A stretch of 34,726 nt of DNA from Symbiobacterium thermophilum (lineage in GTDB: Bacteria > Bacillota > Sulfobacillia > DYFQ01): positions 1 through 34,726 of the forward strand of contig DYFQ01000031.1 of assembly GCA_020725105.1 (NCBI GenBank), written 5' to 3'. The stretch's first letter is position 1. Each line of letters begins with the position of its first letter. Position numbers and translations under genes: made by a program. Positions 66 through 18,230 of this stretch are shown here, piece by piece. Below the pieces are notes generated by a model. It was not told the origin of the DNA. It saw nothing but the letters and a program-made list of their open reading frames with translations, and searched no databases.

Positions 66-578
66 TCAGTTGCCGGCGGCCTCCACCAGGTTGCGCAAGG
101 CGGCCGCGGTCAGCGGCCCCACCCACCGGCCGGCAATCCGGCCGGTCCGGTCCAGCACGTAGGTCTCGGGGACACCCGTGATCCCGAACACCTGGGCCCA
201 GCGGCCGGTCTCGTCGAGGCCGGCATAGTAGCCTTCGCCGGGCTGCACGGCGAACTTGCGGGCTTCCTCGGGGTCGCTCTGCACGCAGACGGCCACGAAG
301 GCGACGTTGCGGGAGCGGTAGTACCGCCACCCCCAGGTCAGGACCTCCGGTTCCTCCCGGCAACTGGGACACCAGGCGGCCCAGAAGTTTACCACCACCA
401 CCCGGCCGCGCAGTTCGGCCAGGTCCAGGGTTCCGCCGTCCAGAAGCGCCAGGGTCAGGTCGGCCACCGGTGCCGCTCCGAGCGCCGCGGGACGTCCCTC
501 GCCGGCCAGGCCGCGGAAGAAGACAAAGAGGAGCAGGGCGACGGTCAGCACGGCCAGGAACGGCCCCACGCGCCGCAT
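66..578 (-). CDS. ccmG: CcmG/ResA-type thiol-disulfide oxidoreductase
   Basis: This 170-residue membrane-anchored thioredoxin-fold protein probably keeps the CXXCH cysteines of apocytochrome c reduced on the outer face of the membrane, the role of CcmG/DsbE/ResA. An N-terminal membrane segment covers about residues 6-22. The thioredoxin active site WCPSC has its cysteines at 70 and 73, and the cis-proline loop GVPETYV has its proline at 137. Length is typical. Its ATG directly follows the TAG stop of ccmE, so the two are almost certainly co-transcribed. The many multihaem cytochromes on the opposite strand are its obvious clients. ResA and CcmG share this fold, and the CcmE and CcmF neighbours favour the CcmG name. 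Confidence 0.93.
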   Translation of the reverse strand: MRRVGPFLAVLTVALLLFVFFRGLAGEGRPAALGAAPVADLTLALLDGGTLDLAELRGRVVVVNFWAAWCPSCREEPEVLTWGWRYYRSRNVAFVAVCVQSDPEEARKFAVQPGEGYYAGLDETGRWAQVFGITGVPETYVLDRTGRIAGRWVGPLTAAALRNLVEAAGN

Positions 579-1022
579 CTAACCCGTTCCTCCGCCCGGT
601 TGGGGCTCGGTGGGCGGATGGGGCGGCGGCTGGTCGGGCGGCCGCTCGTACCTGGACGGGCACTGCATGAGCAGCCGGTCGGCGGTGAGGGTGCCGTCGG
701 CGCCCAGTTTCCCCTCGACCACCGCCTGGACGCCGGGGTTGTCAAACAGGTCGGGCTTCAGGCCACGGTAGACCACCGGCAGCCGTAAGCCGCCCTCCAT
801 CAGGTTGAACCGCAGGGTCACCTCGCCGGGACGCCAGTCCACCGACTCCCGGTCGATGGCCCCGGCCACCCGGATCCGGCGGCCTTCCAGGGATGACAGC
901 TGGGTGAGAGTCTCGGAAACGGTGTAGTAGACCACCCTGGATCGGGCGGCCGACACGAACAGGTAGCCGATGGCGCCGGCAACCAGGCTCAGGGCCAGGA
1001 CGATGCGCAGGCCTCTGGTCAT
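579..1022 (-). CDS. ccmE: CcmE haem chaperone, cysteine (CXXXY) variant
   Basis: This 147-residue protein has one N-terminal membrane helix (about residues 5-24) followed by an OB-fold domain with the CcmE pattern EGRRIRVAG and VVYRGLKPDLF. CcmE carries haem covalently from CcmC to CcmF. Classical CcmE binds haem through His in an HXXXY motif. Here the aligned motif is C121-P-S-R-Y125, the CXXXY form known from Desulfovibrio, archaea and a few Gram-positives and called System I*. The tail after residue 126 is rich in Pro and Gly and probably disordered. It is the first gene of a leftward pair with ccmG. The ATG start is supported by the family-typical N-terminus, and a good promoter lies upstream at 1078-1106. 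Confidence 0.93.
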   Translation of the reverse strand: MTRGLRIVLALSLVAGAIGYLFVSAARSRVVYYTVSETLTQLSSLEGRRIRVAGAIDRESVDWRPGEVTLRFNLMEGGLRLPVVYRGLKPDLFDNPGVQAVVEGKLGADGTLTADRLLMQCPSRYERPPDQPPPHPPTEPQPGGGTG

Positions 1023-1243: not shown

Positions 1244-1463
1244 AAATGCGGAGTCCAAGGCCAGGCGCCACGAGCCACGAGGCCGCTGCCCGGTGTCCCG
1301 GACGCAACCCGGGCGGCCCGGTTCGGGGGGTGCCTGGCCACGTCTTTTGGGCCGGGCCCGCCGTGGCGGGTGAGCGGAACTCCCCCTCTGGAGCAGCGGA
1401 TGTCCCCCGCTCCGCAAGGCGGAAGCGGTGGCACAGACGCCAGAAGAAGGGAGGGAAAACGCG
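1244..1463 (+). other. Long structured leader before the nonahaem gene
   Basis: About 220 bases without a credible gene separate the operator from the TTG start. The segment is rich in inverted repeats. The clearest is at 1407-1428 (CCGCT and CCGC pairing with GCGG and AGCGG around an AAG loop, one bulged A), about 20 bases before the ribosome binding site at 1449-1455. It could be a structured 5' untranslated region. I could not match it to a riboswitch class. Confidence 0.35.
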
Positions 1464-3332
1464 TTGCCACATCATCTCCACCGGACGGCCGTGGCTGTGG
1501 TGCTGGCCCTCGTCCTGGTGGCCGTCCCGGCCGCCGGGGTAATGGCCTTTACCGACACGGCGGGGCACTGGGCGGAGTCCATCGTCGCCGAGGCGGCCCG
1601 GGCGGGCCTGATCTCAGGATACCCCGACGGGACCTTCCGGCCGAACGACCCCGTCGTCCAGGCCCACTTCGCGGCAATCCTGGCCAACGCCGGGAAACCG
1701 GTGACCGTTGATAGCCCGGCCGCCTACACCACCCGGGAGGAAGCCGCCAAGTACCTGGTCATCGCTCAGGGACTGGAGGCCGAGGCCAACGGGCTCTCCA
1801 GCGCCGCCACCGAGGACCTGCTCGCCGGCTTTGCCGACCGTAGTCAGATCGGCCTGGCTTACCGGCGCTACGTGGCCACGGCGGCCAAGCACAAGCTGCT
1901 GCAGGGGCAGGTGCAGAACGGCGCCACCCTGTTCAACCCCAAGGCCAACCTGACCCGGGCCCAGGCGGCCGCCGTCGTGCTGCGGCTGCTGGGGCGGACC
2001 CAGCTCCCCGGTCGCTTCACCCTGGGCGCCCACGTGGGCTCCGAAGCCTGCCTCGGCTGCCACGTCAAGCAGTACGAGGGCTGGCGCGACACGGCCCACT
2101 CCATGATGATCCTGGACGCCAAGGGGCCGGCGGTCCAGGCCGACTTCACCACCTTCCCCAACCCGGAGTACAAGAACCTCCTGCTTCAGGCGCACTACGT
2201 GATGGGCATCCCCCGTCAGGAGCGGTTCCTGGTCAAGCTGGAGGACGGGCTCCACTACGTGCTGCCCTACTACTGGGACCGGGAAGCCAAGGCCTGGAAG
2301 GAATACAACCTGGCCACCTGGCGGGCCCGGTCGTGGGAAGACGGCTGCGCCAAGTGCCACACGGTGGGCTTCGCCGCGGCCACCAGGACCTTCGCCGACA
2401 CCCGGATCGGCTGCGAGAACTGCCACGGGGCCGGCAGGGAGCACATCCTGGCCCGGGGCGACCCGGCCAAGATCACCCTGAGCTTCAGCGCCTCGGTCTG
2501 CGAGCCGTGCCACGGCGGGCGGCCGCAGTACCAGACGTGGAAGGGCTCGGCCCACGCCAAGGCCCTGGCGGCGCCCTTGACCACCGGGCACGCCCGGGAC
2601 TACTGCGTCACCTGCCACTCGGCCGAAGGCGTCCTGGCCAGGGCCGGCCAGGTCGTCACCCTGAAGGACGCGGTCCACAGCGTGGAGTGCTCGGTGTGCC
2701 ACGTGATGCACGAGAAGGGCTTCACCGACCACGCCCAGCTACGCTGGTCGCGGGAGGAGGCCTGCACCAGCCCGTGCCACGGCGGCGTGCCGGCCACGGG
2801 GACGTTCGCCCCGGGAGCCACCGCCCGGCGTCAGTTGCCGCTCTACAGCGGCGTCGGCGCCATCGGAGTGGCCAGCATTCCGAGCTTCCACTACACCAAC
2901 GGGGTGACCTGCGTCGACTGCCACATGGTCCCCACCAGGCAGGGCCGCTACACCGGATCCAACCACAGTCTCCAGGTCGTGATGCCTCGCGACGCGGCCG
3001 CGGCCGGGTTGATCGCCGACAGCTGTGGCATCTGCCACGCCTCGTCACCGCCGGAAGTACGCCAGCGGTACATCGACCTGTGGCAGGAGACCGTGTCGGC
3101 CAGCCTGTTCGAGACCAAGCAACTCCTCGACCAGGCCCAGGCCAGGGTCAAGGCTACGCCTGCCATCTCGGCCGACCTGAAGCGGCTGGTGGACACCGCC
3201 TACACCAACTGGACCATGGTCTCCAACGACGGGTCGAAGGGCGCCCATAACTTCGACTACGCCATCGTGATCCTGGAGAAGGTCAAGCAGGACCTGCAGA
3301 CGTTCCTGAAGGCCACCGGGACCACCCAGTAA
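1464..3332 (+). CDS. SLH-domain nonahaem cytochrome c, S-layer linked
   Basis: A signal peptide (about residues 1-27, hydrophobic core after PHHLHRT) precedes an SLH repeat (FTDTAGHW...GYPDGTFRPND, about 29-72) and a second weaker SLH-like region (about 88-175). SLH domains bind secondary cell-wall polymers. From about residue 196 there are eight CXXCH motifs plus one CX3CH (CTSPCH), giving nine probable c-haems. The C-terminal helical part, with its NDGSKGAHNFDY signature, resembles the NrfA, octahaem reductase and nonahaem OcwA group of multihaem reductases. The in-frame ATG at 1428 is rejected because the TTG at 1464 has a strong AGGGAGGG eight bases upstream and gives a clean signal peptide. 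It leads the divergent cytochrome operon. The terminal acceptor (iron, electrode, nitrogen or sulfur oxyanion) cannot be read from sequence. Confidence 0.9.
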   Translation: MPHHLHRTAVAVVLALVLVAVPAAGVMAFTDTAGHWAESIVAEAARAGLISGYPDGTFRPNDPVVQAHFAAILANAGKPVTVDSPAAYTTREEAAKYLVIAQGLEAEANGLSSAATEDLLAGFADRSQIGLAYRRYVATAAKHKLLQGQVQNGATLFNPKANLTRAQAAAVVLRLLGRTQLPGRFTLGAHVGSEACLGCHVKQYEGWRDTAHSMMILDAKGPAVQADFTTFPNPEYKNLLLQAHYVMGIPRQERFLVKLEDGLHYVLPYYWDREAKAWKEYNLATWRARSWEDGCAKCHTVGFAAATRTFADTRIGCENCHGAGREHILARGDPAKITLSFSASVCEPCHGGRPQYQTWKGSAHAKALAAPLTTGHARDYCVTCHSAEGVLARAGQVVTLKDAVHSVECSVCHVMHEKGFTDHAQLRWSREEACTSPCHGGVPATGTFAPGATARRQLPLYSGVGAIGVASIPSFHYTNGVTCVDCHMVPTRQGRYTGSNHSLQVVMPRDAAAAGLIADSCGICHASSPPEVRQRYIDLWQETVSASLFETKQLLDQAQARVKATPAISADLKRLVDTAYTNWTMVSNDGSKGAHNFDYAIVILEKVKQDLQTFLKATGTTQ

Positions 3333-3435: not shown

Positions 3436-3460
3436 TGCGGGCAATGAGGTGAGTAAGCCA

Positions 3461-4537
3461 ATGAAGAGCCGCCTCCACGCAGTGGTGGTCGCTGTCCTGG
3501 CCACTGCCTTTCTGCTTTCCCTGGCCGGCTCCGCTCCGGCCGCCGGGGTTGAGGTTCGAGAGCCGGCCTCGGAGTACGCCGGGTCGGAAGCCTGCTTCCG
3601 GTGTCACCCCGCCCACTACAGCGATTTCATGGCCTCGAGCCATCCCTGGAAGCTCAAGCCGGCTTCGGTGGCCAGATTCTGGCCGCTCCCGCTTCCTGCC
3701 GGTTATAGCTGGGACGACATTTCCTACGTCATCGGCGGTTACCGCTGGAAGGCCCGGTACATGGACAAAAACGGTTACATCATCACCGTCACCGACGGCA
3801 AGCCGGGCAACAACCAGTACAACCTGGCCACCGGCAAGTGGTCCAATTACGACGCCGGCAAGGTCACGAAGTATGCCTGTGGCCAGTGCCACAACACCGG
3901 TTTCTCCAAGGCGGGCAGCCAGGACGGCCTGCCGGGGATCGTCGGCACCTGGGTCTTTCCCGGGGTCCAGTGCGAGGCCTGCCACGGCCCGGCGGCGGCC
4001 CACGTCGCCTCGGGCGGTGACAGGAGCCTGGTCAAGGTGGACCGGTCGGCCGCCATGTGCGGCCAGTGCCACGTCCGGGGGAACCCCAAGGTCGTTCCGG
4101 CCAGCCGCGGGTTCATCGAACACCGGGAGCAGTACAACGAGCTTCTGGCCAGCCCCCACGGGTTCCTGGAGTGCGTGGACTGCCACAACCCGCACAAGCG
4201 GGTAGAGTTCTCCATCGTCAAGACCTGCGCCGACTGCCACACGTCGGCCGCCGATAAGTTCAAGGACAGCACCCATGACCTGGTGGGCGTGGACTGCATC
4301 GACTGCCACATGCCCCACGCCGTCAGGAACGCGGTCGCCTTCAGCAAGTACAAGGGCGACGCCAGGACCCACCTGATGCGCATCAACACCTACGGCGCCA
4401 TCAGCATGTTCACCGACGACGGCACCCGGGCCCGCAACTTTGTGTCGCTGGGCTTTGCCTGCCTCTCCTGCCACCAGAACCGCGACCTGGTCTGGGCGGA
4501 GAAGCACGCCCGGGGTGTCCACAGCGTCGGGAAGTAA
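3461..4537 (+). CDS. Secreted octahaem cytochrome c
   Basis: This 358-residue protein has a signal peptide (residues 1 to about 28, ending near SAPAAG) and eight CXXCH motifs, the first at 45-49 (CFRCH) and the last at 334-338 (CLSCH). No membrane segment follows the signal peptide and no lipobox is seen, so it should be soluble outside the membrane or trapped in the cell wall. Opening and spacing (EYAGSEACFRCH, then paired CGQCH and CEACH) resemble the start of the haem region of the upstream nonahaem protein, so the two may share ancestry. The ATG at 3461 is chosen over GTG 3449 because GAGGTGA at 3446-3452 sits eight bases before it. It probably relays electrons between the membrane cytochromes and the S-layer. 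No catalytic role can be assigned. Confidence 0.9.
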   Translation: MKSRLHAVVVAVLATAFLLSLAGSAPAAGVEVREPASEYAGSEACFRCHPAHYSDFMASSHPWKLKPASVARFWPLPLPAGYSWDDISYVIGGYRWKARYMDKNGYIITVTDGKPGNNQYNLATGKWSNYDAGKVTKYACGQCHNTGFSKAGSQDGLPGIVGTWVFPGVQCEACHGPAAAHVASGGDRSLVKVDRSAAMCGQCHVRGNPKVVPASRGFIEHREQYNELLASPHGFLECVDCHNPHKRVEFSIVKTCADCHTSAADKFKDSTHDLVGVDCIDCHMPHAVRNAVAFSKYKGDARTHLMRINTYGAISMFTDDGTRARNFVSLGFACLSCHQNRDLVWAEKHARGVHSVGK

Positions 4538-4609: not shown

Positions 4610-4711
4610 GTGAGCCAACCCGCAGCCCCCAGCAGGGCAAGGGCAAACCGGGGCGGCCGGGAGTCCCTCGGACGCAACCGCTCCGAGAAGGGGGGCGCCC
4701 GGCGTGCTTAG
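4610..4711 (+). CDS. Possible 33-residue basic peptide overlapping ccmF
   Basis: A short open frame from GTG 4610 to TAG 4711 is preceded by GAGGAGG (4594-4600) at ideal spacing; an in-frame ATG at 4601 abuts that site and is less likely. The product is rich in Arg, Gly and Ser with no hydrophobic segment, so it is not CcmD. Its last eight bases overlap the GTG of ccmF at 4704, an arrangement typical of translational coupling. It may be a leader that delivers ribosomes to ccmF rather than a functional protein. Existence of the product is uncertain. Confidence 0.35.
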   Translation: MSQPAAPSRARANRGGRESLGRNRSEKGGARRA

Positions 4712-6701
4712 TCTGGGCCGTGCCGGCCTGCTGGCCGCAGCGGTGATAGCGGCCTGCGCCGTGGCCGTCTTGGTCATCGGCCTGTGGCGCCGGGACGCCC
4801 GCTACCTGGAAAGCGGCCGGCGGGCCATCCTGGCCCAGTTCGGCCTGCTGACCGTGGCGTCTCTGTCCCTGGTGGCGCTGTTCGTCACCGACCGGTTCGA
4901 CGTGGCCGCCGTCTTCTACCACAGCCGCTCGGACCAGCCGCTACAGTACAAGATCGCCGGGCTCTGGGCCTCGGCCGAGACCTCGCTGCTCTTCTGGGCC
5001 TGGGTGCTCTCGGGCTTCGCGGCCCTGGTGGCCGCCTTCCCGCCCCGCCAGGCCCGGGAGCTGACGCCTCACGCCCTGGCCATCATGGCGGCCATCAATG
5101 GCTTTTTCAGCTTTCTGGTGGCGTTTGTGTCAAACCCCTTCGTGCTCCTGCCGGCTCCCCAGCCCGACGGCTGGGGGATGAACCCGATGCTGCTGAACCC
5201 GGGCATGCTCATCCACCCCACCACCCAGTACCTGGGCTACGTGGGCTTCACCGTCCCCTTCGCCTTCGCCGTGACGGCGCTGCTCCTGAAGCGCACGGAC
5301 GACGCGTGGATCCGGGCCACCCGGCCGTATACCCTGTGGGCCTGGCTGTTTCTCTCGGTGGGGATGATCTACGGCGCCCAGTGGGCCTACACGGAACTGG
5401 GGTGGGGCGGCTTCTGGGCCTGGGACCCGGTGGAGAACGCCGCGCTGCTACCCTGGCTGACGGGGACCGCCTTCCTCCACTCGGTGATGCTCCAGGAGCG
5501 GCGGGGCATGTTCAAGCTCTGGAATGTCGGGCTCATCGCGGTGACCTTTCTGTTGACGGTGTTCGGCACCTTCATCACCCGTTCGGGGGTGCTCGCGTCG
5601 GTCCACGCCTTCTCGGACACGACCATCGGCCACTACTTCCTCGGCTTTCTGGCGGCGGCGGCCGGCTTGTCGTTATACCTGTCCATCAGCCGCCGGCACC
5701 TGCTGGCGGGTGAGCACCGCCTCGAATCGCCGCTGTCCAAGGAATCCAGCTTCCTCCTGAACAACCTGCTCCTGCTGGCCATGGCGGTGGGGGTGTTCTG
5801 GGGGACGGTCTATCCCCTGGTCTCCCGGGCCTTCACCGGCCAGACGGTAAGCCTCGGCGAGCCGTTTTTCAACCGGGTGGCCGTGCCCGTGGGCGTCCTG
5901 CTGGTGCTGCTCATGGGGATCTGCCCCCTCATCGCCTGGCGCCGGGCGTCCGCCAGGAACCTGGCGCGGAACTTCCTGTGGCCCCTGGTGGCGGGCGTTG
6001 CCGCCCTCGCCGCCCTGGTGGCGAGCCTGGGTCCCGACCGGTTCTGGGCGGCTCTGGCCCTGGCGGCAGCCGTGTTCGCCCTGGCCACCGTCGTGCTGGA
6101 CGTGGCCCGGGCGGTGGCGGTGCGGCGGCAGCTGTCGGGCGATCCCGCGGGCCCAGCCGTATGGCGGCTCTTGAGCGGCAACCGGCGCCGTTACGGCGGT
6201 TACCTGGTCCACGTGGGCGTCGTCTTCATGATCGTGGGCATCGTCGGCGGGAGCGCCTTCGTCCAGGAGGTGGAAGCCCCCCTCGAGGTCGGGCAGTCGC
6301 TGACGCTCAGGGACTACACCGTGCAGTACCGCGGCCTCTCCGTGGAGGAGCAGGGGCGGATCAGCGTGGTCCACGCCGACCTCCTGGTGCTCCGGGGCGG
6401 CCGGGAGGTCGGAACCCTGCGGCCGGCCAAAGAGTTCCACCCCCAGTCCGAAAACCCCCGCTCGGAAGTGGCTATCCTGGGTAGCCTTCGCGAGGACCTC
6501 TACGTCATCCTGGGCGGGTGGGAGGACTACGGCCGGATCGCCGCCTTCAAGGTACAGCTTCACCCGCTCATGGCCTGGCTCTGGCTGGGAATGTACGGCC
6601 TCATCCTGGGCACCGTGTTCGCCGCCTGGCCCCAGGCCCGGCAGGTAGCCAGGGGACGCGCCCGCTCCTCGCTGGACGCGGCGGCCGGAGGTGGGCGTTG
6701 A
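4704..6701 (+). CDS. ccmF: CcmF cytochrome c haem lyase
   Basis: This 665-residue polytopic membrane protein attaches haem from CcmE to apocytochrome c. The haem-handling WWD motif is WGGFWAWDPVENAALLPW (about 234-251). Four histidines, H171, H259, H301 and H503, sit where the CcmF family has its haem-ligand and WWD-flanking histidines. A large extracytoplasmic segment from about 515 precedes the last membrane helix near 625-645. Length is normal for CcmF. The start is GTG 4704, overlapping a short upstream frame. It lies inside the cytochrome operon while ccmE and ccmG are divergent. ccmA, ccmB, ccmC and ccmH are not in the window. Confidence 0.95.
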   Translation: MLSLGRAGLLAAAVIAACAVAVLVIGLWRRDARYLESGRRAILAQFGLLTVASLSLVALFVTDRFDVAAVFYHSRSDQPLQYKIAGLWASAETSLLFWAWVLSGFAALVAAFPPRQARELTPHALAIMAAINGFFSFLVAFVSNPFVLLPAPQPDGWGMNPMLLNPGMLIHPTTQYLGYVGFTVPFAFAVTALLLKRTDDAWIRATRPYTLWAWLFLSVGMIYGAQWAYTELGWGGFWAWDPVENAALLPWLTGTAFLHSVMLQERRGMFKLWNVGLIAVTFLLTVFGTFITRSGVLASVHAFSDTTIGHYFLGFLAAAAGLSLYLSISRRHLLAGEHRLESPLSKESSFLLNNLLLLAMAVGVFWGTVYPLVSRAFTGQTVSLGEPFFNRVAVPVGVLLVLLMGICPLIAWRRASARNLARNFLWPLVAGVAALAALVASLGPDRFWAALALAAAVFALATVVLDVARAVAVRRQLSGDPAGPAVWRLLSGNRRRYGGYLVHVGVVFMIVGIVGGSAFVQEVEAPLEVGQSLTLRDYTVQYRGLSVEEQGRISVVHADLLVLRGGREVGTLRPAKEFHPQSENPRSEVAILGSLREDLYVILGGWEDYGRIAAFKVQLHPLMAWLWLGMYGLILGTVFAAWPQARQVARGRARSSLDAAAGGGR

Positions 6702-6764: not shown

Positions 6765-7259
6765 GTGGATAGCCTGGTGGGAGCCGCGCTGGCGGCAGCC
6801 GTGCTGCTGTACGTGGGGCGGCCCCTCTTCGGGCGGGCCGGTCCGGCCACCGCCGGCTGGCTCGGAACGCTGCCGGTCCGGGCGGGCCGGTCCGGTGACC
6901 GCGGACCGGCCGAGCGCGGGGCGCCCGACCTGGCGCGGGAACTCGCGGACCTGGAATACGACTACCGTATGGATAAGCTGGGCGCCGAAGACTACCGGCG
7001 CCTGAAGGCGGCGCTCGGTACCGGGGCGGCCGGGCAGAAAGCCGGGGGGCGACCGGCGCCATCGGCTGATGCCGGCATCGAGGCCGAGATCCGGGCCGCC
7101 GTGGCCCGGCGCCGGGCGGGGAGCCCGCAGGCCGGGGCGCCGGGTGCCCTCTTCTGCCCGGCCTGCGGCACGCGGCTTTTGTCCCCCGGCCAGCGTTACT
7201 GCCACCACTGTGGCGGCCAGTTGCCGGACGGCACGCCTGCGGGGGGTAGCCGCCCGTGA
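6765..7259 (+). CDS. Membrane protein with CcmI-like helical module and zinc ribbon
   Basis: The product, about 164 residues, has an N-terminal membrane segment (about residues 3-18), an acidic helical module (DLARELADLEYDYRMDKLG, then AEDYRRLK) resembling the N-terminal linker of CcmI-type proteins, and a C-terminal four-Cys zinc ribbon (CPAC...CHHC). It follows ccmF by about 60 bases and overlaps the next gene by four bases (GTGA), so it belongs to the maturation operon. GTG 6765 is preferred because GGGAGGAG (6751-6758) lies six bases upstream; ATG 6759 and GTG 6723 are in-frame alternatives. A role holding apocytochrome or the lyase complex is inference from context. No enzymatic motif is seen. 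Confidence 0.75.
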   Translation: MDSLVGAALAAAVLLYVGRPLFGRAGPATAGWLGTLPVRAGRSGDRGPAERGAPDLARELADLEYDYRMDKLGAEDYRRLKAALGTGAAGQKAGGRPAPSADAGIEAEIRAAVARRRAGSPQAGAPGALFCPACGTRLLSPGQRYCHHCGGQLPDGTPAGGSRP

Positions 7260-8239
7260 GGAGTCTGTCGCGCGGCGTGGCCCGTGCCACCGGCGGTGCC
7301 CGGCGTCTCGCGCTGACCACAGGCCTGGCGCTGGTGATGGTGCTGGTCCTGGCCCTGGGAACGCCGGTGGCCGCTGAGGACCAGGCGGTCCGCATCAGCG
7401 GCGCGCATCTGGTCCTGACGCCGGACGCCGACGGGGTGGCCGCGGTCCACATGGCGGCCTTCTACAACCCGGGCGAGACGGCCCAGAGCGCTCTCGACGT
7501 GCGGCTGCCCGAGGGTTACACGGCCCTGGCGGTGCTGCGCGGGGCGGACGTCGCCCCGGGGAGCCAGACGCCGGACGGGTTCGTGGACGCCTCCGGCCTG
7601 GCCCCCGGCGAGAAGCTGGTGGCCGTCGCGTACCGGCTCGACTGGACGGCCGAGGGCGAGGCGCGCCTGAGCTGGACCCCCGGTTACCCGGTGGACGGCC
7701 TGTTCGTGCTGGCCCCCCTGGGCTCACTACGGGTGGCCGACGCGGCATCGGGAGAGACGGTTGCCCCCGGCCAGCTCGAGATGGGAGGACGGATTTACGA
7801 CGCCTGGGCCTTCGGATCCCTGCCGGCGGACCAGGCCCTGACTCTCGTCCTCCGGCCAAACCCCGATCCGCCCGCCACCGGAGCGGCCGAGGCAGGCGGG
7901 AGCGGCCGGCCCGCGGTGGCTCCCGGAGCCAGTCCCGGTCTCTGGCAGCGGTTGATGGAAGCCCCCGGGGGCTCGGGGGCGGCGGGTCTGGCGGCCCTGG
8001 CCCTGGTAATTGGCCTGGTCGTCCTGGTGGGCCTGAGGGCGCGCCGGCGTTCGCCGGCCACCACCGCCGGGCGACCGCCCGCACCCGAGGACCGGCAGGC
8101 GTTGATCGAGGCCGTGGCCGACCTGGATATCGCCTTCGAGGCGGGGACCATCGACGAGGACGGATACCACCGGGAGCGGGAGGCGCTGTTGAACCGGCTC
8201 AGGGCCGTCCCGCCCGGGCGCGGGGGCGACCCGCGCTAG
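7256..8239 (+). CDS. Signal-anchored protein with extracellular beta domain and CcmI-like tail
   Basis: This 327-residue protein has a signal peptide (about 17-40, ending near VAAED), an extracytoplasmic domain of predicted beta character (about 42-200), a linker rich in Gly, Ala and Pro, a membrane helix (about 243-262) and a cytoplasmic tail. The tail (ALIEAVADLDIAFEAG, then TIDEDGYHREREALLNRL) is the same short helical module seen in the preceding gene and in CcmI N-termini. The start overlaps the upstream stop. The gene ends the ccmF cluster, with a terminator at 8307. A cytochrome assembly role is likely by position, but the family is not one I can name. Confidence 0.72.
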   Translation: MRSLSRGVARATGGARRLALTTGLALVMVLVLALGTPVAAEDQAVRISGAHLVLTPDADGVAAVHMAAFYNPGETAQSALDVRLPEGYTALAVLRGADVAPGSQTPDGFVDASGLAPGEKLVAVAYRLDWTAEGEARLSWTPGYPVDGLFVLAPLGSLRVADAASGETVAPGQLEMGGRIYDAWAFGSLPADQALTLVLRPNPDPPATGAAEAGGSGRPAVAPGASPGLWQRLMEAPGGSGAAGLAALALVIGLVVLVGLRARRRSPATTAGRPPAPEDRQALIEAVADLDIAFEAGTIDEDGYHREREALLNRLRAVPPGRGGDPR

Positions 8240-8391: not shown

Positions 8392-8652
8392 ATGCCCATG
8401 CTGCCGCTGCGCTGTCGCTGCGGCAAGATCCTGGCCGAGCTGGCGGACGAGGGACCCGACGCCGTCGTCCTGCCCGAAGCCTTGCCTGAAGGCCCGCCGA
8501 ACGTCGCCAGCCGGGCCATCGTCGTCAAGTGCCGCCATTGCAAGCGGTTCATGGTGCTGTGGATCACCGGCCTGGAAACCGTGGACTTCGTCGATCACCG
8601 GCACCAGGTGGGCCGGCCCGGGCGTTCGGCGCCGGCCGCCTCGGTCCGGTAG
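8392..8652 (+). CDS. Com-like zinc-ribbon protein, copy 1
   Basis: This 86-residue cytoplasmic protein has two metal-binding half-sites, RCRCGKIL near residues 7-14 and VKCRHCKRF near residues 45-53, the layout of the small Com family first described in phage Mu, where Com is an RNA-binding translational activator. The first half-site is CXC rather than CXXC. Downstream is LETVDFVD and a basic tail. A GAGGAGG at 8382-8388 suits either ATG 8392 or ATG 8398. It immediately precedes the 22-haem gene. A paralogue lies at 12516. Metal binding is probable; a regulatory role on the cytochrome transcripts is inference. Confidence 0.75.
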   Translation: MPMLPLRCRCGKILAELADEGPDAVVLPEALPEGPPNVASRAIVVKCRHCKRFMVLWITGLETVDFVDHRHQVGRPGRSAPAASVR

Positions 8653-8678: not shown

Positions 8679-10937
8679 ATGGGTACGGCGGACGCGCGTT
8701 GCGGTGCGCCCCGAAGGTGGCCCCGGGGGCTGTCGGGCGTCTGGACGGCGGTAGTGGCCGTCGCCGGGGTCATGGCCCTCTTCATCCTCACGTCGCTCGG
8801 CACCGGCGGGGCGGGAGCAAGCCCGGCCGCCGGTCAGCAGCCGGCCGTCGACTGGCGGGAGAGCCTGACCGAGGGCCCGGTCCACGGCCCGGACCTCCCT
8901 GGCGGCCGCCCCAGGGCCACCTGCGCCGACTGCCACGCGCCGAGGCCTGAGGTTCCCGGCGCCGTGCCGCGGCTGCCGGCCCGGTTGAGTCCGGTGACCC
9001 AGACGGCCTGCGCGGCCTGCCACGCGGGCCCGGCGGCGGACGTGACCCGGGGCGCCCACGGGCTGGCGGCGGCGGGGCCCGAGGGCGCGCCTTTGCCGGC
9101 CTGCAGCACCTGCCACGGGACCCACGGCATCCTGCCCGCGACCGCCCTGGCCGGCCGGATCGGTTCCACCTGCGCCGACTGTCACCCGGGCCCCGCCGCG
9201 GGCCTTGGCCCGCCCCACCAGGGGGCGGTCAGCCGTCAGGGACCGGTCAGCTGCGCCAGTTGCCACCGGAGCCACGCGGTGCTGGACTTTGTCGGCCGGC
9301 CGGAGGCGACCACGACTTCCTGCGCCACCTGCCACCGGACGGCCGGCCGGGAGCTTGCCTCGAGCGTTCACGGGGCCACCAGCCCCGCGACGGGGCTGCC
9401 CGCCGCCAGTTGCGCCTCGTGCCACCGGGGCCACGCCACCGGCACCGGGGCGGCGGCCCCGAGCCGGGCCGCCACGGCCTGCGCCACCTGTCACCAGGCC
9501 GTCCCGGCCCGCCTGGCCGGCACGGCCCACGCCCAGGTGGCCTGTGTCACCTGCCACGGCAGCCACGGCGTGGCCGGCGACCCGGTGGTGGCCACCGGGG
9601 CGGCGTGCGTCAGCTGCCACGCCTCGGCCGCCGCGAGGCTGGCCGGGACCCCCCACGGCCCCGGGACCGCCGACGGGGCCGGCGTGAGCTGCGCCAGCTG
9701 CCACGGGGTCCACCCCGATCCGGCGGCGAAACCGCCCGAGGAAATGCCGGCGGCCCTCGGCATCGCGGGAGCCCTGGACCAGAGGTGCGCCGGCTGCCAC
9801 GCCGAGGCGGTGAAGACGTTCCTGACGAGCTTCCACGCGGCTCCCGCTCCCGACGGGCGGCCGGCCGCCACGTGCACCGACTGCCATGCCGGCCACCTGC
9901 CCGCCACGGACCGGCGGGCCACGTCCCAGACGAAGGACATGCCGCCGGTGGCCACCGGCAGCGACATCGAGGCGCGCTGCGCCACCTGCCACCAGCAGGC
10001 CGGCGCGTCGCTCGCCGAGAGCGCCCATGCGGGCCTGGACGGCAGCTCTCCCGACCCGCAGGCTCCTGGCTGCCTCACGTGCCACCCGGGGCACGAGGGA
10101 CTTCCCCCGGCCGCCAACAGGCCCGCCGCCCTGCTGGCCCTGGCCGAGTCGCGGCTGGAGACCTGCCGTTCCTGCCACGAAGAGCCGGCCAAGGGTTTCG
10201 GCGAGAGCGTCCACGCCGAGGCCGATCCGGCCTCGGGCCGGCTGGCCTACTGCTTCAGCTGCCACACCGCCCACGCCGTCCAGCCCATCGGGCGGACGCC
10301 CGCCGAGCGGGGCAAGTTCTGGCTGAGCATGGCGGAGAACTGCAGCCACTGCCACGAGGAGCCCGGCAACGGCTACCGGTCCAGCGCCCACCGGTCGGTC
10401 CTGGAGGACGGGTGGCTGGCGGCCTCGTGCCGGGATTGCCACGGCGGGCCCGCGCGCGGCCTGGCCCTTGAGGCCCCCGCCGCCCTGGCCCACACCGGGC
10501 TCACCAGGGACGTGGCGTGGCGTGACCCCGAACGCTGCCTGGCCTGCCACGAAGGCATCCGGCCAAGCTGGGAATACAGCTTCCACGGCGTGACCTACCG
10601 CAAGGGCTGGGACAGGGCGCCTGACTGCCTCTCCTGCCACGAGGGGAAGCCCCACGCCGTCCTGGCCATGACCGATCCCCGGTCCACGGTCCACCCGGAC
10701 AACGTCCCCGAGACGTGCGCCCGGTGCCACCGGCTGGCCCAGCCCAACTTTGCCCGGGGCCTGGAGCACGTGACACCACGGGATCGGGACCGGGCCTTCC
10801 CCATGTGGGCCGTGTACAAGTTCTTCATGGCCCTGATCCTGTTCGACGTGGTCAAGGATGGGCCCATCGTCGTCCTGGAACTGGTGCGCAGGCTGAAGCG
10901 CCTGAACCGCCGAGGAGGCAGTCGCCATGGCCACTAG
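8679..10937 (+). CDS. 22-haem membrane-anchored cytochrome c
   Basis: This 752-residue protein has an N-terminal membrane segment (about 22-40), 22 CXXCH motifs between about residues 82 and 684, and a hydrophobic C-terminal segment (about 711-733) followed by a short basic tail. The motifs run in doubled units: one CXXCH followed by a distal His of the SVHG or TAHA type, then CASCHRGH or CVTCHGSH, the doubled-CXXCH pattern of multihaem electron wires. It uses ATG 8679, with GGGGGA eight bases upstream. It overlaps the cytochrome b start by 11 bases, so the two are translationally coupled and probably form one complex that takes electrons from menaquinol. The expected location is outside the membrane, spanning the wall. 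Confidence 0.93.
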   Translation: MGTADARCGAPRRWPRGLSGVWTAVVAVAGVMALFILTSLGTGGAGASPAAGQQPAVDWRESLTEGPVHGPDLPGGRPRATCADCHAPRPEVPGAVPRLPARLSPVTQTACAACHAGPAADVTRGAHGLAAAGPEGAPLPACSTCHGTHGILPATALAGRIGSTCADCHPGPAAGLGPPHQGAVSRQGPVSCASCHRSHAVLDFVGRPEATTTSCATCHRTAGRELASSVHGATSPATGLPAASCASCHRGHATGTGAAAPSRAATACATCHQAVPARLAGTAHAQVACVTCHGSHGVAGDPVVATGAACVSCHASAAARLAGTPHGPGTADGAGVSCASCHGVHPDPAAKPPEEMPAALGIAGALDQRCAGCHAEAVKTFLTSFHAAPAPDGRPAATCTDCHAGHLPATDRRATSQTKDMPPVATGSDIEARCATCHQQAGASLAESAHAGLDGSSPDPQAPGCLTCHPGHEGLPPAANRPAALLALAESRLETCRSCHEEPAKGFGESVHAEADPASGRLAYCFSCHTAHAVQPIGRTPAERGKFWLSMAENCSHCHEEPGNGYRSSAHRSVLEDGWLAASCRDCHGGPARGLALEAPAALAHTGLTRDVAWRDPERCLACHEGIRPSWEYSFHGVTYRKGWDRAPDCLSCHEGKPHAVLAMTDPRSTVHPDNVPETCARCHRLAQPNFARGLEHVTPRDRDRAFPMWAVYKFFMALILFDVVKDGPIVVLELVRRLKRLNRRGGSRHGH

Positions 10938-11766
10938 GGCTCTGGACCTTGGGGAGCAAACCGCTTCAGTTCCCCGGGAGATCGAGCGGTGGAACATCCA
11001 CCACCGGCTCCAGCACCTGGGCCTGTTCATCAGCGTGAGCATCCTCATCGTCACCGGCTTCTCCATGAAGTTTCCCGACGCGCCGCCGGCCATGCTGACC
11101 ATGCGGCTCCTGGGGGGCATCAGGAACACCCTTTACGTCCACCTGGCGGCGGCGGTCATGATGGTGGCCACCGGGCTCTACCACATCGGCTATCTCGTCT
11201 GGTATGTCCGGCGACACGGGCCCACCTGGGACATGCTCCCCAGGTTCCAGGACTTCAAGGACGCCTTCCACCACGGGCTCTACCTCCTGGGCATCCGGGA
11301 CGACCGGCCCCGGTTCGGCCGCTACTCCTACCTGGAGAAGTTCGAGTACCTGGCCGTCTTCTGGGGCTTCATCTTCATGGGTGGCTCAGGGCTGGTGCTG
11401 TGGTTCCCGGAGGTCGCGGCCTACGCCCTGCCCCGCTGGGCCATCTCGGCGCTGCGGGTGGTCCATTCCAACGAGGCGTTCATCGCGCTCCTGTCCCTGG
11501 CCTACGGGCACTTCTTCTTCGTCCACTTCGACCCGGAGGTCTTCCCCGGTTCCAAGGTGTGGCTGACGGGCAAGATGTCGGTGGCCAGGATGTGGCACGA
11601 GCACCCACTGGAGGCCGAGGCCCTGGGCCTGCTCCACGTCCCCCCCGAGCCGCCCAGGCGCTGGTTTGGACTGAGCCCGGCGGCCTTCGTCTGGGTGCAG
11701 ATCCTGCTGTACGCGGCAATAAGCATCATCGTGTTGCTCTGGGTGCTTCCCGAACTGTTACGCTGA
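10927..11766 (+). CDS. Cytochrome b, probable menaquinol oxidase subunit
   Basis: This 279-residue integral membrane protein has five likely helices (about 28-45, 69-90, 139-160, 183-200, 253-275). Candidate b-haem ligands are H25, H26 and H30 at the first helix, H72 and H86 in the second, and H180, H195 and H200 around the fourth. The pattern resembles the cytochrome b561, formate dehydrogenase gamma and Cbc-type b subunits that pair with multihaem cytochromes. It has GAGGAGG upstream and its ATG lies inside the end of the 22-haem gene. It probably oxidises menaquinol and passes electrons to that protein; direction could be reversed. Substrate specificity is not readable from sequence. Confidence 0.88.
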   Translation: MATRALDLGEQTASVPREIERWNIHHRLQHLGLFISVSILIVTGFSMKFPDAPPAMLTMRLLGGIRNTLYVHLAAAVMMVATGLYHIGYLVWYVRRHGPTWDMLPRFQDFKDAFHHGLYLLGIRDDRPRFGRYSYLEKFEYLAVFWGFIFMGGSGLVLWFPEVAAYALPRWAISALRVVHSNEAFIALLSLAYGHFFFVHFDPEVFPGSKVWLTGKMSVARMWHEHPLEAEALGLLHVPPEPPRRWFGLSPAAFVWVQILLYAAISIIVLLWVLPELLR

Positions 11767-12515: not shown

Positions 12516-12767
12516 ATGCAGTACGAAACCCTGGAATCCCACGCCGGTGCCACCACCGCGGAACTCCGCCACGTCCGCTGCCGATGCGGAAAGATCCTCT
12601 GCCAGACGGCGGTCGACACCCAGTCCCGGGCGGCGGAGCCACCCCCTGCCGAACTGCGCGCCGCCAGCACCATCGTCATCAAGTGCCGCCACTGCAAGCG
12701 TTACCTGGCGCTGCGGGTGGACCAGATCGCCGGAGTCCGGTTCGTCGACGACCCTTCGCAACTCTGA
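12516..12767 (+). CDS. Com-like zinc-ribbon protein, copy 2
   Basis: This 83-residue paralogue of the protein at 8392 shares VRCRCGKIL (about residues 20-28) and IKCRHCKRYLAL (about 54-65), and a similar VRFVDD near the end, but has a longer N-terminus. The ATG at 12516 follows GAGAGGAG by eight bases. Unlike copy 1 it has its own strong promoter with an operator. It ends the rightward block, facing guaB. Com-family proteins bind RNA in phage Mu; here no phage genes surround it. A post-transcriptional role for the cytochrome mRNAs is speculation. Confidence 0.75.
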   Translation: MQYETLESHAGATTAELRHVRCRCGKILCQTAVDTQSRAAEPPPAELRAASTIVIKCRHCKRYLALRVDQIAGVRFVDDPSQL

Positions 12768-12823
12768 GACCGGCAGCGCCCGGGCCCGCCGGGGCGCCGG
12801 GTGGGCCGAGGCGCGCGGCAACT

Positions 12824-16388: not shown

Positions 16389-18230
16389 TCACGCCCCCCT
16401 CGCCCGGGCAAAGCTCTCGAAGCTTGACAGGCTGCTCTCGGGATAGGCCTCCATGGCCAGGCACCACTCGCGGATCCGCTCGGCCCGGTGCTCCCCCGCC
16501 CCGAGCACCAGCGGCCGGCCGCGGCCGTCGAGGATGACGCCGAGCACGCCCCCGGCCACCTCGGCCCGGACCCGCTGGCCCGGCCCGGCGCCGAAGTCCT
16601 GGTCCCGGGCGGGGCTGATCTCCAGCTGTCCGACCTCCCCGGGGGCCAGGGCCAACCGCTTCAGGCTGCCCGCCACCAGGCTGGTGCGGGCCTCGCCGCC
16701 CCCCGGACCGCGACGCAGGATGACCGAGGCCAGCCTGGAGCCGGGCCGGACCCAGTCCCACACCCCCCGCTTGACCGGGGCGACGCAGGTGCCGAGGGCG
16801 GTCAACCACTCCCCGGCCAGGACCGTTTCGGCGTCGGCGGGGAAGGCGGCCGCCAGAGCGCCCAGGTGCCCCATGATGCCCTGCGCGTCCAGGGCCAGAA
16901 AGGTCAGCCCGGCGGGCTGGGCGGCGTCCAGCAGCAGGAGCCCCGCCTGCCGCGGGTCGGCGTCGGTCAGGCCGCCGCCGGTCCCGACCACCGCGTCCAC
17001 GTGCAGCAGGTCAAGCAAGGGGCGGCGCTCCAGGCCAAACACGGCCCGCAGCCGCTCCCCGAGGTCCGCCGCCCGGAGCACTCCCTTGAGGGCGCGGGCG
17101 ACCCGCTGGTGGCCCAGGAGCGCCCCCCGCAGGAGTTCCCGGCGGCGGGCGTGTTCCAGCCACAGCTCCGGCCAGGACTCCGGGACGCCCAGCGGCCGCA
17201 ACTCCCGGTTACCGAGCCAGTTGTCGACGGCGTGCAGGTCGGCGGGGTAGGGGAGCCACTCCGCCACCGCCTCGGCCGACAGCGGCGAGGCGGCGTACGA
17301 AACCGCCTCGGAGGTCCTGGCGGCCGGTTCCACCTCCGGCTCGAAGCGGGACCGCACGTAGCCACCGTCGATGACCGAGTGGACGTCAGCCCCCGCGGCC
17401 CCGAGATCGAGCACCAGCAGGTTACCCTCCCAGGCCCTGGCCAACCACCTGGCTACCTCCCCCACGGCGAGCGGAGCCGGGAGCAAGCGCTCCCCCGCCA
17501 GTTCGGCCAGGCCGCGGGTGTGGGCCAGGCGGGGCGCGATCTGCCGCCCGAACAGGGCCAGGATGGTGTCCACCGCCGGCTCCAGGTTTTCGGCTTCCAT
17601 CTCCGGTCGCACGTTCTCGGTGAAGACGAGTTCCCCCCTCACCCCGTCGCCGTTGGGCCCCTCGAACACCTCCCGGATCAGATCCCTTGCCTCCAGGCTG
17701 CCGGCGAAAACTACCGGTACCGGGGCTGCCGGGTCGAAGCGGGGCCGGGGCAGACCCCGGCGAACCAGGTCGGCCATGGTGACCACCTGCCGGCCCGAAC
17801 CGTAACCCATGAGCCCTTCGTCCACCCCGCCGGCCAGGACCACCAGGTCCAGCGGGCACTGCTTGAGGGCCCGGATCTTCTCGTGGGGCAGCCGGCGGTC
17901 GTCGATGGCCAGCAGATCGACGACGCTTGCGCCGGCGTTCAGGGCGGCCCGGAGGGCGCTTTCGGCCGAGATCTCCCGGACCACGCCCACCACCGCCGCC
18001 AGGAGCGACCCCCCGGGCACGGTCACCACCGCCGCGCCGGGCACCGGACGGCCGCTTGCCGCCGCCACCCGCTCGACGGCCGCCCGGAACCCTTCGGCCA
18101 GGTCCTGGGGGTTGGTGGGAGCCACTCCCCGGGCGACCACCCGGGGCTGGCCCCCGGCCCGGTCAAACAGGACCGCCTTGGTCATGGCCGTGCCGCAGTC
18201 CACGGCCAGCAGCGATCCGGGTTCGGGCAT
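16389..18230 (-). CDS. GlmL/MutL-type ASKHA ATPase
   Basis: This 613-residue protein carries the actin-like nucleotide-binding phosphate-1 motif AVDCGTAMTKAVLFD (about 9-23), a second motif LLVLDLGAAGADVHSV (about 271-286) and VGTGGGLTDADP (about 413-424). It matches the GlmL/MutL family, named for a gene beside B12-dependent glutamate mutase and thought to act as a repair or activating factor. No mutase subunit (GlmS, GlmE or OraS/OraE) lies in the window, so the partner is unknown here. It follows the ABC permease by 27 bases, with GGAG before the ATG, and is coupled to the KOW-like protein. Confidence 0.85.
   Translation of the reverse strand: MPEPGSLLAVDCGTAMTKAVLFDRAGGQPRVVARGVAPTNPQDLAEGFRAAVERVAAASGRPVPGAAVVTVPGGSLLAAVVGVVREISAESALRAALNAGASVVDLLAIDDRRLPHEKIRALKQCPLDLVVLAGGVDEGLMGYGSGRQVVTMADLVRRGLPRPRFDPAAPVPVVFAGSLEARDLIREVFEGPNGDGVRGELVFTENVRPEMEAENLEPAVDTILALFGRQIAPRLAHTRGLAELAGERLLPAPLAVGEVARWLARAWEGNLLVLDLGAAGADVHSVIDGGYVRSRFEPEVEPAARTSEAVSYAASPLSAEAVAEWLPYPADLHAVDNWLGNRELRPLGVPESWPELWLEHARRRELLRGALLGHQRVARALKGVLRAADLGERLRAVFGLERRPLLDLLHVDAVVGTGGGLTDADPRQAGLLLLDAAQPAGLTFLALDAQGIMGHLGALAAAFPADAETVLAGEWLTALGTCVAPVKRGVWDWVRPGSRLASVILRRGPGGGEARTSLVAGSLKRLALAPGEVGQLEISPARDQDFGAGPGQRVRAEVAGGVLGVILDGRGRPLVLGAGEHRAERIREWCLAMEAYPESSLSSFESFARARGA

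Follow-up and report, generated by a model that had tools for sequence, protein, structure and literature searches.

Two overlapping genes in the window (the whole 34,726-nucleotide stretch of DNA analysed here) encode a 22-haem c-type cytochrome and a dihaem cytochrome b. To judge from homology, their products together represent a two-chain version of the CbcL/MtrH/MtoC quinol:cytochrome c oxidoreductases and would act like CbcL, the link to the Geobacter enzyme being one of common layout. We consider it probable (about 0.78) that the two chains form a menaquinol:multihaem-cytochrome-c oxidoreductase of this type, in which a free, apparently bis-His-ligated arm exports electrons outward. The pair is thus a lengthened two-gene variant of a known electron-export enzyme and no new type of machine. 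The features on which the argument draws are the following.

66–578, minus strand: ResA/DsbE-type thiol-disulfide protein of cytochrome c maturation, divergent
579–1022, minus strand: CcmE, cytochrome c maturation, divergent (PF03100)
1428–3332, plus strand: SLH-domain OcwA-like multihaem cytochrome, probable surface electron outlet (SLH and NrfA/c554 families; match to 6i5b; gene order as in locus L022)
3449–4537, plus strand: octahaem c554/OcwA-related cytochrome, probable extracellular partner (8 CXXCH; Pfam)
4704–6701, plus strand: CcmF haem lyase, in the gene run of the cytochromes (PF16327, PF01578; equivalent place in L022)
8679–10937, plus strand: 22-haem c-type cytochrome, the putative electron-accepting arm of the module (22 CXXCH; Pfam; +12/+3 His ligands)
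8730–8819, plus strand: N-terminal hydrophobic segment, probable cleavable signal peptide with a possible AGA|SP site after residue 47 (hydropathy; AxA sites of homologues)
8922–10172, plus strand: extended haem array, roughly haems 1–16 (long only here and in L022/L050 among split members of the class)
10173–10760, plus strand: conserved C-terminal haem core, common to all partners (matches, invariant columns, pLDDT)
10803–10919, plus strand: C-terminal transmembrane helix, residues 709–747, with KDGP motif and basic tail (predicted helix; homologue alignment)
10927–11766, plus strand: FdnI/HydC-like dihaem cytochrome b with five hydrophobic segments (PF01292; FdnI 1kqf_C profile match; invariant His; hydropathy)

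The 22-haem reading frame runs from an ATG at 8679 to a stop at 10937 and specifies 752 amino acids. Its 22 CXXCH motifs, the number given in the initial annotation, are far in excess of chance: shuffling of the composition (2000 trials) yielded a mean of 0.15 and a maximum of 2. Matches to the Pfam families Cytochrome_C7 and Cytochrom_c3_2 exceed their cut-offs. Successive motifs are separated by 21–36 residues and form doubled units of about 42–65 residues, close to the 45–60 originally estimated. From haem 2 to haem 18, two ligand types alternate strictly. In type A the next histidine lies 11–12 residues on (+12); type B has the form CXXCHxxH (+3). Because the chain contains 26 histidines beyond those of the motifs, all 22 haems could be bis-His ligated.

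The conserved part of this protein lies toward its C terminus. Matches in 11 other genomes of the class fall mostly within residues 485–750, the alignment (A2) has the last three haems in invariant columns, and the predicted structure has a pLDDT of 71–89 across most of residues 541–690. Over the haem array the pLDDT is about 30–58, and a fold search with the model, which is of low confidence there, returned nothing usable.

The adjoining frame, whose 11-base overlap with the 22-haem frame is confirmed by the coordinates, is by its sequence a genuine cytochrome b. It scores 47.5 bits against Pfam Ni_hydr_CYTB (PF01292), for which the cut-off is 30.1, and a profile built from 12 of its relatives matches E. 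coli FdnI (1kqf_C) with an E value of 5e-7. Four histidines (H30, H72, H180 and H195) are invariant in the family and stand at the ligand spacing of FdnI. In a model of a fused homologue (L065), the membrane part matches 1kqf_C with a TM-score of 0.73 on the target. A single-sequence search of the PDB had returned 1rli, which we regard as a chance result; the profile gave FdnI instead.

When the genome collection was scanned with an alignment of the cytochrome b, 80 relatives emerged (a scan with the single sequence gave no matches), drawn from Bacillota, Acidobacteriota, Bacteroidota, Verrucomicrobiota, Chloroflexota, Gemmatimonadota, Methanoperedens and others. In 45 of them a multihaem c domain of 6–23 haems precedes the cytochrome b in one fused chain, and in 34 a separate multihaem gene comes directly before it; a single relative (L086) has neither. 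The proposed coupling of the 22-haem protein to a b subunit therefore recurs, by fusion or direct adjacency, in 79 of the 80, and the two components do co-occur. Of 154 genomes in the window's class, 13 have the cytochrome b, and every class locus that was read has a multihaem gene next to it, provided that the contig extends far enough. In the tree, the window groups with the 19-haem system of L050/L022 (support 98), within a clade of 32 Bacillota rows that are all split.

The single-chain, fused CbcL/MtrH/MtoC proteins have 3–23 haems and, for the most part, six membrane segments; no Firmicutes are among the homologues listed (PMC6295460). The window resembles them in coupling a multihaem c domain to an FdnI/HydC-like dihaem cytochrome b, with a helix between c and b, and in retaining the conserved histidines of that cytochrome. 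Its 22 motifs fall within the published range, and hydropathy gives six transmembrane segments, here five in b and one in the c protein. It differs in having two overlapping genes rather than one polypeptide, in its monoderm host, and in the size of its arm, since CbcL of Geobacter sulfurreducens has nine haems. Split Cbc-like clusters have been described in Carboxydocella thermautotrophica, where a diheme b protein accompanies a multihaem c protein with one transmembrane helix (PMC6085454), and the window, with its b gene adjoining the gene of a one-helix multihaem c protein, fits this layout. C. thermautotrophica is itself among the loci compared (L056); its partner has six haems, and in the membrane helix a histidine takes the place of the window's KDGP motif. 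Given this published split pair and the published range of haem numbers, the pair counts as a variant of a known enzyme type.

Two other systems bear comparison. In Mco, the methanophenazine:cytochrome c oxidoreductase of ANME archaea (PMC9012536), a cytochrome b gene likewise adjoins that of a 7–11-haem cytochrome, and there are separate S-layer multihaem proteins; its cytochrome b is archaeal and VhtC-like, so that it is likened to the window by layout and no kinship with the window's family is claimed. E. coli formate dehydrogenase-N shares the FdnI-type dihaem cytochrome b and differs in its partner, the iron-sulfur protein FdnH taking the place of a multihaem arm. There, too, a C-terminal helix anchors the electron-carrying partner, FdnH, next to FdnI. 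A quinol dehydrogenase of the NapC/NrfH/CymA kind was considered and rejected: the 22-haem protein has no NapC/NirT Pfam match, and its conserved membrane helix is C-terminal, not N-terminal.

In the mechanism that we propose, the FdnI-like cytochrome b would oxidise quinol, and its two b haems would take the electrons across the membrane, where they would enter the 22-haem protein at its C-terminal core. This protein would be held beside the cytochrome b by its single C-terminal transmembrane helix, which together with the five segments of b would make up six, as in CbcL. Once the signal peptide is removed, the N-terminal part would be a free, apparently all-bis-His haem arm that could carry electrons out through the monoderm wall, where the S-layer-anchored OcwA-like cytochrome of the operon would receive them. 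The early steps, from quinol oxidation through the b haems to the c core, are well supported by the family; we infer the handover from the array to the OcwA-like protein and the direction of flow. As to the quinone, the futalosine-pathway family was not found in the window's genome, and MenD matched there only below cut-off.

The genes that accompany the pair are consistent with a route to the cell surface. Upstream on the same strand lie the genes for the SLH cytochrome, its octahaem relative, CcmF, a zinc-ribbon protein, a membrane protein and a small Cys-rich protein. The operon of L022 (SLH cytochrome, CcmF, two small genes, Cys-rich protein, 19-haem cytochrome, cytochrome b) keeps the order of the window; the octahaem cytochrome is without a separate counterpart gene there. 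The best PDB match of the SLH cytochrome is OcwA (6i5b, E 2e-54), which is characterized by nine haems and an NrfA-family core; the match fits such a core, and eight CXXCH motifs and one CX3CH suggest the nine haems. The CX3CH motif, CTSPCH, aligns with a CXXCH in the L022 relative and appears to be a one-residue insertion that would keep the ninth haem. Omp85 was looked for in the window's genome and none was found, and the genome has 28 SLH domain matches, a combination that points to a monoderm with S-layer proteins. As read from its genes, the module likely serves to export electrons from the membrane to the surface of such a cell. Thermincola, with OcwA, CwcA and ImdcA, offers a Gram-positive parallel in which export ends in OcwA (PMC6703420, PMC7911101). 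Stacked hexahaem CwcA and decahaem shuttles have been proposed for that organism (PMC6703420, PMC7911101), whereas in the window one long arm, anchored in the membrane, could take over some of this work.

Electron flow might run the other way, with the pair taking electrons from outside, for example from Fe(II), and reducing quinone as has been proposed for MtoC. CbcL/MtrH/MtoC homologues have been implicated in both directions (PMC6295460), and the terminal oxidases of the genome could consume such electrons. We nevertheless think this direction unlikely, because the surface partner is OcwA-like and OcwA is a proposed terminal reductase in Thermincola (PMC6703420). The genome has three COX1-type oxidase genes (contigs C68, C58 and C2), so that the organism can probably respire oxygen or NO as well, and electron export would not be its only respiration. 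A scan of the genome for the CXXCH codon pattern found no further dense multihaem cluster, the sole exception being five scattered sites beside the COX1 gene on contig C2.

It is also improbable that outward flow ends at an oxyanion or nitrogen-compound reductase of the surface or wall, acting on nitrite, sulfite or the like, rather than at solid acceptors. The operon neighbours do belong to the NrfA/c554/OcwA superfamily, and in vitro the substrates of OcwA include nitrite and hydroxylamine (PMC6703420). However, the SLH domains would put the neighbour at the S-layer, within reach of solid acceptors, and a regular, apparently bis-His array such as this one is typical of conduction.

How the arm is fixed to the membrane depends on its two ends. 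Kyte-Doolittle hydropathy confirms that both are hydrophobic, at about residues 18–42 (values up to 2.2) and 706–737 (up to 1.9), as was noted at the outset. At the C terminus, AlphaFold predicts a single 39-residue helix (709–747, pLDDT mostly 77–88) and, at the equivalent place in the fused homologue L065, a helix of 34 residues. Nearly every homologue inspected has a hydrophobic helix after the last haem, usually followed by basic residues, and in the fused homologues this helix runs into the cytochrome b and connects it with the c domain. The claimed C-terminal membrane segment is thus a conserved transmembrane helix, equivalent to the c–b connecting helix of the fused proteins, and the prediction gave no sign of a soluble one. 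By analogy with the known topology of FdnI, the connecting helix may answer a topological need, as the c domain lies outside and would have to reach the inside N terminus of an FdnI-like protein. The C-terminal helices of Bacillota fall into two subfamilies, one with a conserved histidine near the inner end and the other, which includes the window's, with a KDG(P/S/T) motif. Cytochrome b residues beside H195 vary in parallel (glycine versus tryptophan); a difference at the quinone site is possible.

The N-terminal segment is probably better read as a cleavable signal peptide than as a membrane segment. It has a basic n-region, a 20-residue h-region and the sequence AGA|SP, and most homologues begin with an ordinary AxA-type signal sequence. 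The initial annotation had pictured fixation at two points and perhaps a hairpin wire, leaving the membrane and re-entering it. In favour of such a loop are the two hydrophobic termini, the predicted N-terminal helix (residues 17–42, pLDDT about 81) and a few homologues (L051–L053) that begin with unusually long hydrophobic stretches. But a predicted helix cannot tell a signal peptide from an anchor, and published CbcL has all six transmembrane helices in its C-terminal half (PMC6295460). With the signal-peptide layout here and in most homologues, the hairpin becomes improbable. The simpler model, and the one that these sequence features favour, has the chain tethered through its C terminus, beside the cytochrome b, and its N-terminal arm free.

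It is in the length of this arm that the window departs from most of its relatives. Counting of CXXCH motifs in the homologues gave 4–7 haems for the partners of cytochrome b in most members of the class; long arms occur in the split class set only in the window, with 22 haems, and in L022/L050, with 19. Fused relatives, too, can carry long arms (17–23 haems), so that 22 is no record. The +12/+3 ligand rule of the array is found also in the core of the 7-haem partners and in L022, and with the haem motifs masked the array matches the 7-haem cores weakly (E about 0.005 at best). These observations suggest that the arm probably lengthened as the two-haem unit of the core was repeated, the likeliest origin given that the separate carriers of related lineages do not follow the rule and are not linked to the array by the masked search. 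Fusion of a short anchor cytochrome with such a carrier is very improbable, for although sister lineages (L032, L134, L025 and L055) do encode a 4-haem anchor and, beside the module with its cytochrome b, a separate 14–20-haem cytochrome, the ligand offsets and haem spacings of these carriers are quite different from those of the array, and the haem-masked search found no match between the two.

The passage of electrons across the thick Gram-positive wall is unsettled, and current proposals invoke stacks of small cytochromes. Here, in two related genomes, a putative quinol-oxidising module has an arm of 19–22 haems where 4–7 are usual, and lies beside an S-layer OcwA-like cytochrome. Hexahaem CwcA measures about 5 nm, and Gram-positive walls are 20–80 nm thick (PMC7911101). 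At about 5 nm per six haems, a 22-haem array would be about 18 nm long if extended, a little short of the thinnest of these walls. We suggest, tentatively and with some doubt, that one polypeptide might span most of the wall from the cytochrome b to the S-layer reductase, its length gained by repetition of the two-haem unit. If so, one operon would yield a shuttle-free electron outlet from the quinone-oxidising cytochrome b to the S-layer. The parts form a small, testable set, and the natural series of 4, 7, 19 and 22 haems poses the question of whether arm length replaces separate carriers.

Several other genes deserve mention. Two related Cys-rich proteins (8392–8652 and 12516–12770; CRCGKI...KCRHCK) flank the cytochrome pair. 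A Pfam search with both returned no family, and similar proteins lie beside the module in L022, L023, L024, L029 and L033. The product of 7256–8239 is a predicted secreted or membrane protein that is kept in the L022 operon and shows a weak, sub-threshold similarity to GvpG. Farther along, on the minus strand, the gene at 16389–18230 matches the MutL family PF13941.
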